Of a DNA stretch of 64,000 nt, positions 1-1,195 are shown piece after piece. The position numbers were made by a program, and so were the translations under genes. The notes beneath the pieces were generated by a model that did not search any database, had not been told where the DNA came from, and worked only from the letters and a program-made list of their open reading frames with translations. Origin of the DNA: Halobacterium salinarum DSM 3754 (GTDB lineage Archaea; Halobacteriota; Halobacteria; Halobacteriales; Halobacteriaceae); NCBI RefSeq assembly GCF_008124605.1, contig NZ_VRYN01000001.1, positions 1 through 64,000 on the forward strand, in the 5' to 3' direction. Position 1 is the stretch's first letter, and each line of letters opens with the position of its first letter.

Positions 1-2
1 AC

Positions 3-19
3 CGTGCACCAAGTGCACG
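3..19. repeat. Perfect 7-bp inverted repeat with 3-base loop
   Basis: CGTGCAC at 3-9 and GTGCACG at 13-19 are exact reverse complements around CAA. It lies in the non-bop flank and could be a hairpin or part of a mobile-element end. Its role is unknown. Confidence 0.5.
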
Positions 20-38
20 ACTTTCTAAGCTAGTAACT

Positions 39-47
39 CTCTATAAC
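39..47 (+). promoter_or_regulatory. Possible TATA box reading into the altered bop gene
   Basis: The motif CTCTATAAC is centred about 27 bp upstream of the GTG at 71, the usual TATA-to-start distance for a leaderless haloarchaeal transcript. If used, it would replace the lost bop promoter and remove control by the normal upstream activating sequence. Confidence 0.4.
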
Positions 48-70
48 AGTCAGAAACTCTATCATAGTGT

Positions 71-874
71 GTGAAGACTTCTATGACACCCTCGTTATTG
101 CCAACAGCAGTGGAGGGGGTATCGCAGGCCCAGATCACCGGACGTCCGGAGTGGATCTGGCTAGCGCTCGGTACGGCGCTAATGGGACTCGGGACGCTCT
201 ATTTCCTCGTGAAAGGGATGGGCGTCTCGGACCCAGATGCAAAGAAATTCTACGCCATCACGACGCTCGTCCCAGCCATCGCGTTCACGATGTACCTCTC
301 GATGCTGCTGGGGTATGGCCTCACAATGGTACCGTTCGGTGGGGAGCAGAACCCCATCTACTGGGCGCGGTACGCTGACTGGCTGTTCACCACGCCGCTG
401 TTGTTGTTAGACCTCGCGTTGCTCGTTGACGCGGATCAGGGAACGATCCTTGCGCTCGTCGGTGCCGACGGCATCATGATCGGGACCGGCCTGGTCGGCG
501 CACTGACGAAGGTCTACTCGTACCGCTTCGTGTGGTGGGCGATCAGCACCGCAGCGATGCTGTACATCCTGTACGTGCTGTTCTTCGGGTTCACCTCGAA
601 GGCCGAAAGCATGCGCCCCGAGGTCGCATCCACGTTCAAAGTACTGCGTAACGTTACCGTTGTGTTGTGGTCCGCGTATCCCGTCGTGTGGCTGATCGGC
701 AGCGAAGGTGCGGGAATCGTGCCGCTGAACATCGAGACGCTGCTGTTCATGGTGCTTGACGTGAGCGCGAAGGTCGGCTTCGGGCTCATCCTCCTGCGCA
801 GTCGTGCGATCTTCGGCGAAGCCGAAGCGCCGGAGCCGTCCGCCGGCGACGGCGCGGCCGCGACCAGCGACTGA
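71..874 (+). CDS. bop: Bacterio-opsin with a rewritten N-terminal presequence
   Basis: Light-driven proton pump of the purple membrane, a seven-helix retinal protein. From LLPTAVEGVSQAQITG onward the protein matches the Halobacterium salinarum precursor as recalled, including the mature start at Gln19 of this reading, the RYADW segment holding the proton acceptor Asp85 (mature numbering), the LLLLDLALL segment with the donor Asp96, and the DVSAK retinal lysine near residue 234. The native first three residues MLE are replaced: starting at GTG 71 gives an eight-residue MKTSMTPS extension; starting at ATG 83 gives MTPS. The mature protein should be unchanged since the presequence is removed, but the native promoter and mRNA start are gone, so expression is doubtful. 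blp follows 51 bp downstream. Start choice is uncertain; identity is not. Confidence 0.95.
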   Translation: MKTSMTPSLLPTAVEGVSQAQITGRPEWIWLALGTALMGLGTLYFLVKGMGVSDPDAKKFYAITTLVPAIAFTMYLSMLLGYGLTMVPFGGEQNPIYWARYADWLFTTPLLLLDLALLVDADQGTILALVGADGIMIGTGLVGALTKVYSYRFVWWAISTAAMLYILYVLFFGFTSKAESMRPEVASTFKVLRNVTVVLWSAYPVVWLIGSEGAGIVPLNIETLLFMVLDVSAKVGFGLILLRSRAIFGEAEAPEPSAGDGAAATSD

Positions 875-925: not shown

Positions 926-1195
926 ATGAGTCCCCCACTCGGTCTTGTACTCGCACGATCGCGCGACGACGGCGACGCCGACGGCGACTTTCCAGCGTCG
1001 CTCAACAGGCTGGCTGTCGTCGCGCTCGCTGGTGCGGCTCTCGTCGGTGCGGCGGGTCTGTTCGCCGTGCCGTTCCTGCGGTCGTTCGGCATGACGTTTT
1101 GGGAAGCGTTCACCGTTGTTGGTGTCTCCGAGTTCGTCTCGGCCATCGTGGCGGCCCTCGCGGGCTACCACCTCTACACCACGCCCGACGACTAG
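926..1195 (+). CDS. blp: Bacterio-opsin-linked small membrane protein
   Basis: An 89-residue protein with two hydrophobic segments (about residues 26-49 and 58-82) and an acidic N-terminus (RDDGDADGD). It lies just downstream of bop on the same strand. From memory, Halobacterium salinarum carries a bop-linked gene called blp here that is co-induced with bop; the biochemical role is unknown. The ATG at 926 gives a protein that begins shortly before the first membrane segment. If blp normally depends on a bop-region activator, the altered region upstream of bop could affect it too, unless it has its own promoter. The stop codon lies within a CTAG tetranucleotide. Confidence 0.65.
   Translation: MSPPLGLVLARSRDDGDADGDFPASLNRLAVVALAGAALVGAAGLFAVPFLRSFGMTFWEAFTVVGVSEFVSAIVAALAGYHLYTTPDD

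Follow-up and report, generated by a model that had tools for sequence, protein, structure and literature searches.

What are the bases that precede the bacterio-opsin gene bop at the start of this contig, and what became of the promoter and start codon expected in their place? In the window (the whole 64,000-nucleotide stretch analysed here, which starts at base 1 of contig C1), the bop frame is interrupted nowhere between the LLPTAV segment and the stop at 874 (ORF listing; Pfam Bac_rhodopsin, E = 2e-74), as the initial annotation had described. Positions 94-874 (plus strand) comprise bop from the third base of codon 3 to the stop and, according to the ORF listing, the joining of the two flanks and the Pfam match, encode the whole mature bacteriorhodopsin. 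Downstream lies an 89-aa ORF (926-1195, plus strand), taken from the ORF listing alone, which is presumably blp. The breakpoint falls between bases 93 and 94, and the base 5' of GTTATTG is C, as previously noted, which proved to be the last base of a mobile element. Bases 1-93 are not bop; they recur with 100% identity (over 92-94 bases) six more times in the genome and on pHSAL2, so that the genome carries seven copies of this element end, the one in bop included. These bases had been regarded as foreign DNA replacing native sequence: their recurrence as an element end supports the foreign origin, whereas the apparent replacement partly reflects an assembly edge, since C1 begins at window base 1 because the assembler broke at the repeated element. 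We conclude, with a probability of roughly 93%, that the element MITEHsal2 inserted into codon 5 of bop after coding base 14, duplicating GTTATT, and that the strain is probably a natural bacteriorhodopsin mutant.

The missing 5' half of the gene was located on contig C7 through its left junction, AGTTATT followed by GAGGGTGTCATAGA. There, brz (NCBIfam equivalog) is followed by the bop promoter, ATGTTGGAGTTATT and the left 93 bases of the element, identical to the pHSAL2 copy; divergent brp/blh was recognised by NCBIfam, and the next ORF after brp, with 674 aa and a PAS domain, stands where bat would be. The break in the native sequence follows ATGTTGGAGTTATT, the first 14 coding bases of bop, and splits codon 5; the 6-bp target duplication GTTATT stands on both sides of the split, with the left copy on C7 directly before the left end of the element and the right copy at window positions 94-99 (plus strand); the pattern of a 7-bp duplication, GTTATTG, is absent. 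Joining the flanks in a script with a single GTTATT restored the native MLELLPTAV..., and Halobacterium sp. TGN-42-S1 is colinear with the empty site and the DNA before it, whereas no uninterrupted bop start (native ATGTTGGAGTTATTGCCAACAG) was found in the whole assembly. The 93 bases are absent from the native upstream region both on C7 and in TGN-42-S1, which excludes that they belong to it. The presence of the bop promoter on C7 likewise rules out a promoter deletion: promoter and start were displaced, not lost. The initial annotation had promoter and MLE start replaced, but these were separated from the rest of the gene by a 405-bp MITE. Element and bop point in one direction, and the resulting order runs brz, bop promoter, ATGTTGGAGTTATT, element with its ribbon-helix-helix gene, GTTATTGCC... 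and the rest of bop, where the join of C7, element and C1 is based on the matching duplication and published coordinates, no single contig or read crossing it.

The element is complete on pHSAL2 of H. salinarum 91-R6 (DSM 3754), where it measures 405 bp (GAGGGTGTCATAGAAG...CTTCTATGACACCCTC) and has inverted ends of 25 bp at 88% identity; this length was measured on complete copies, the bop copy being visible solely as two 93-bp ends. Its one ORF encodes a 66-aa ribbon-helix-helix protein (Pfam RHH_1, just over the curated cut-off), and a transposase gene is absent. Five copies could be paired by their target duplications, of 6, 7, 7, 7 and 8 bp, so that the element shows the hallmarks of a MITE, namely terminal inverted repeats and direct target duplications (6-8 bp, five copies) without a transposase. 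According to Table A2 of PMC10264941, the 91-R6 chromosome has two MITEHsal2 copies specific to it, one of 413 bp with an 8-bp duplication and one of 411 bp with a 6-bp duplication, and subtraction of the duplications leaves 405 bp in each case, the length of the pHSAL2 element. The copies bounding C7 have an 8-bp (C3/C7) and a 6-bp (bop) duplication, as in this listing, and C7 spans 47,172 bp between its element ends; less 8 bp, this gives 47,164 bp, equal to the gap between the listed copies, a match that is exact provided that the right-hand duplication is counted within the listed intervals and is otherwise 2 bp off. Two other contigs, with the element ends that they carry, are 100% identical to pHSAL2 over 3,892 and 4,172 bp, and the genome is therefore that of 91-R6 or of a nearly identical strain. 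Going by its length, its target duplications and the spacing of its copies, the element is most probably MITEHsal2. The listed copies, with their 405 bp, their duplications of 6 and 8 bp and their positions, are consistent with the insertion in bop, which is very probably the one at 1,455,597-1,456,007; the accessible text of PMC10264941 makes no mention of bop as a target. A search of phage sequences for the element gave no match. Elsewhere in the genome, a padR regulator gene on pHSAL2 is split by a further MITEHsal2 copy, whereas NRC-1 has this gene uninterrupted (pNRC100 VNG_RS12745), a copy on C14 sits ~27 bp ahead of a probable gene start, its flank occurring without the element in other Halobacterium plasmids, and a ~697-bp element with the same GAGGGTGTCATAGAA ends (C15, 6049-6745) carries a 173-aa ORF without a Pfam match.

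The element end at bop consists of the right terminal 93 bp of MITEHsal2 (window positions 1-93, plus strand; element positions 313-405), truncated where the contig begins, and matches the final 93 bp of the pHSAL2 element without a difference. At 4-18 it contains the palindrome GTGCACCAAGTGCAC, the second of two flanking the ribbon-helix-helix gene and a candidate operator, which is conserved in divergent element copies and occurs once in the window (chance expectation, 0.01). CTATAAC at 41-47 (plus strand), TATA-box-like and ~27 bp before the GTG at 71, might tentatively be taken as an outward promoter; it is kept, between variable stretches, in most divergent copies. The right terminal inverted repeat (70-93, plus strand), ending in ...CTTCTATGACACCCTC, pairs with the left end of the element and includes two starts: a GTG (71-73, plus strand), the first in-frame start after the last stop, which would give MKTSMTPSLLPT... 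(ORF 71-874), and an ATG supplied by the element (83-85, plus strand), which the joining of flank and element places in frame with bop (MTPSLLPTAVEGVSQ...).

The native bop start now reads MLELLRVS-stop, eight codons with the stop inside the element. Because the native start is cut off from the opsin frame, bacteriorhodopsin would be strongly reduced or absent, and its loss or strong reduction is the likeliest outcome; the earlier expectation of altered bop expression is judged probable. Since the element end supplies an in-frame ATG, an opsin with the altered leader MTPSLLPTAVEGVSQ... and an unchanged mature protein is, on sequence grounds, predicted to be encoded, and some residual opsin could arise from the GTG or ATG if transcription read through from the bop promoter or began at a candidate outward promoter in the element. 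No special RNA fold was detected at the new bop start (z = -0.54).

Taken further, bop might still be alive, with the element end providing both promoter and start and the opsin being made with the leader MTPSLLPTAVEGVSQ (or MKTSMTPS...), perhaps under the control of the ribbon-helix-helix protein, which we regard as unlikely. The two in-frame starts, the intact mature opsin and the conserved palindrome and CTATAAY stretch would fit such a design. In the H. salinarum genome, all five intragenic copies have the element ATG in frame with the remainder of the host gene (bop, the padR gene, a C5-epimerase-like gene, a large gene matching a DUF1156 protein and a small pHSAL2 gene). This striking 5/5 suggested a general rule that the element end restarts its host gene in frame, but the rule failed elsewhere: of seven clear intragenic cases in other haloarchaea, picked by us on ORF length, codon composition and protein family, only one was in frame, and four of the six out-of-frame host genes had Pfam support. 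Overall, 6/12 fusions are in frame (P = 0.18 against 1/3), so that an in-frame fusion is no general trait of the element. Moreover, insertion of ISH1 at the same hot spot, reportedly first described by Simsek et al., is a classic bacteriorhodopsin-minus mutation.

Two further alternatives were considered. The junction could stem from recombination between two MITEHsal2 copies, in which case the true left flank would not be bop's own promoter; seven right ends offer substrates and transposon-triggered inversions are known for 91-R6 (PMC6624760), but C7 ends with precisely the 14 bases that open the bop coding sequence, has the GTTATT duplication in common with C1 and shows a spacing that fits the published assembly (PMC10264941), making this highly improbable. 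An assembly artefact joining the repeat to an intact bop, prompted by the position at the contig edge, is extremely improbable, given that two separately assembled junctions have one target duplication in common, that an uninterrupted bop is absent from the assembly and that the published long-read assembly includes a matching copy (PMC10264941).

The GTTATT duplication lies inside the 8-bp ISH1 target in bop, presumably AGTTATTG, and the overlap of the two target sites indicates that a known hot spot was struck by another element, in line with the suggestion of the initial annotation that a mobile element had broken bop there without being a plain ISH1 copy. The published site confirms the position, with ISH1 at coding base 15 and an 8-bp duplication (PMC7193027). 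ISH1 itself was rejected as the inserted element: it is ~1.1 kb long, encodes a transposase and makes 8-bp duplications, whereas the duplication here is 6 bp and the ends are those of the 405-bp MITE. ISH2, which is non-autonomous like MITEHsal2 and has a homologous inner module, was rejected as well, its 19-bp ends CATTCGTCTTTAGTTAAGA being ISH8-type with duplications of 10-11 bp, as opposed to GAGGGTGTCATAGAA and 6 bp; the ISH2 insertions W1 and W11 upstream of bop lie in brz or its upstream region (PMC2253796), while MITEHsal2 lies in bop itself. Insertion of an element in bop is an ordinary kind of event for this gene. In terminal motif (GAGGGTGTCATAGAA) and duplication length, MITEHsal2 matches ISH11, an autonomous element of ~1.07 kb whose DDE transposase MITEHsal2 lacks; the copies here were assigned to ISH11 from their length, their ends and the DDE domain and not through a named record. 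Relatives of full length, which encode a DDE_Tnp_1 transposase, begin with GAGGGTGTCATAGAAC and have similar ends and duplications, and PMC10264941 gives ISH11 duplications of 6, 8 and 9 bp; outside the ends, no common sequence of ISH11 and MITEHsal2 was found. Because the ends match and the target duplications are similar, ISH11 is the likely source of the transposase, and MITEHsal2 would have been mobilised in trans by an enzyme of this type.

The distribution of the element extends well beyond this strain. Among 394 sampled haloarchaeal genomes, 32, from 20 of 86 genera, contain matches to elements of the MITEHsal2 build (partial matches included), mostly of 404-406 bp and, where duplications were found, mostly with 5-9 bp. 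Conservation of the 66-aa protein is reflected in dN/dS values of mostly 0.03-0.16 relative to the 91-R6 copy (pairwise, simple counting); the ORF is under strong purifying selection although the elements carry no transposase. Its gene is flanked by two palindromes of the GTGCACNNNGTGCAC form, 253-254 bp apart, and in one genome (G128, C1) eleven matches to the palindrome motif were found, the complete copies read representing a 395-bp form of the element. ISH2 of NRC-1 encodes a protein 59% identical to that of MITEHsal2 between the same two GTGCACNNNGTGCAC palindromes, ~250 bp apart. MITEHsal2 (L014, 2689-3093) and ISH2 (L157, 1283-1803) thus have unrelated ends and one inner module in common; a short search with partial literature coverage found no paper describing it. 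MITEHsal2-type elements and ISH2, whose ends are unrelated, may conceivably both carry a single regulatory module, in which two palindromic operators, separated by ~254 or 250 bp, enclose the gene of a ribbon-helix-helix repressor and the second operator precedes an outward promoter, such that insertion would put a neighbouring gene, here bop, under the regulator and start codon of the element, a proposal that we consider doubtful.

A split bop in the type strain of H. salinarum would make that strain a natural bacteriorhodopsin mutant, unsuitable as a wild type for purple-membrane work, and would show two unrelated elements, ISH1 and an ISH11-type MITE, settling on the same few bases of this gene. 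The module common to MITEHsal2 and ISH2 is a more interesting side result than the bop insertion, in that a shared arrangement of repressor and palindromes would offer a testable reason for the persistence of elements that lack a transposase.
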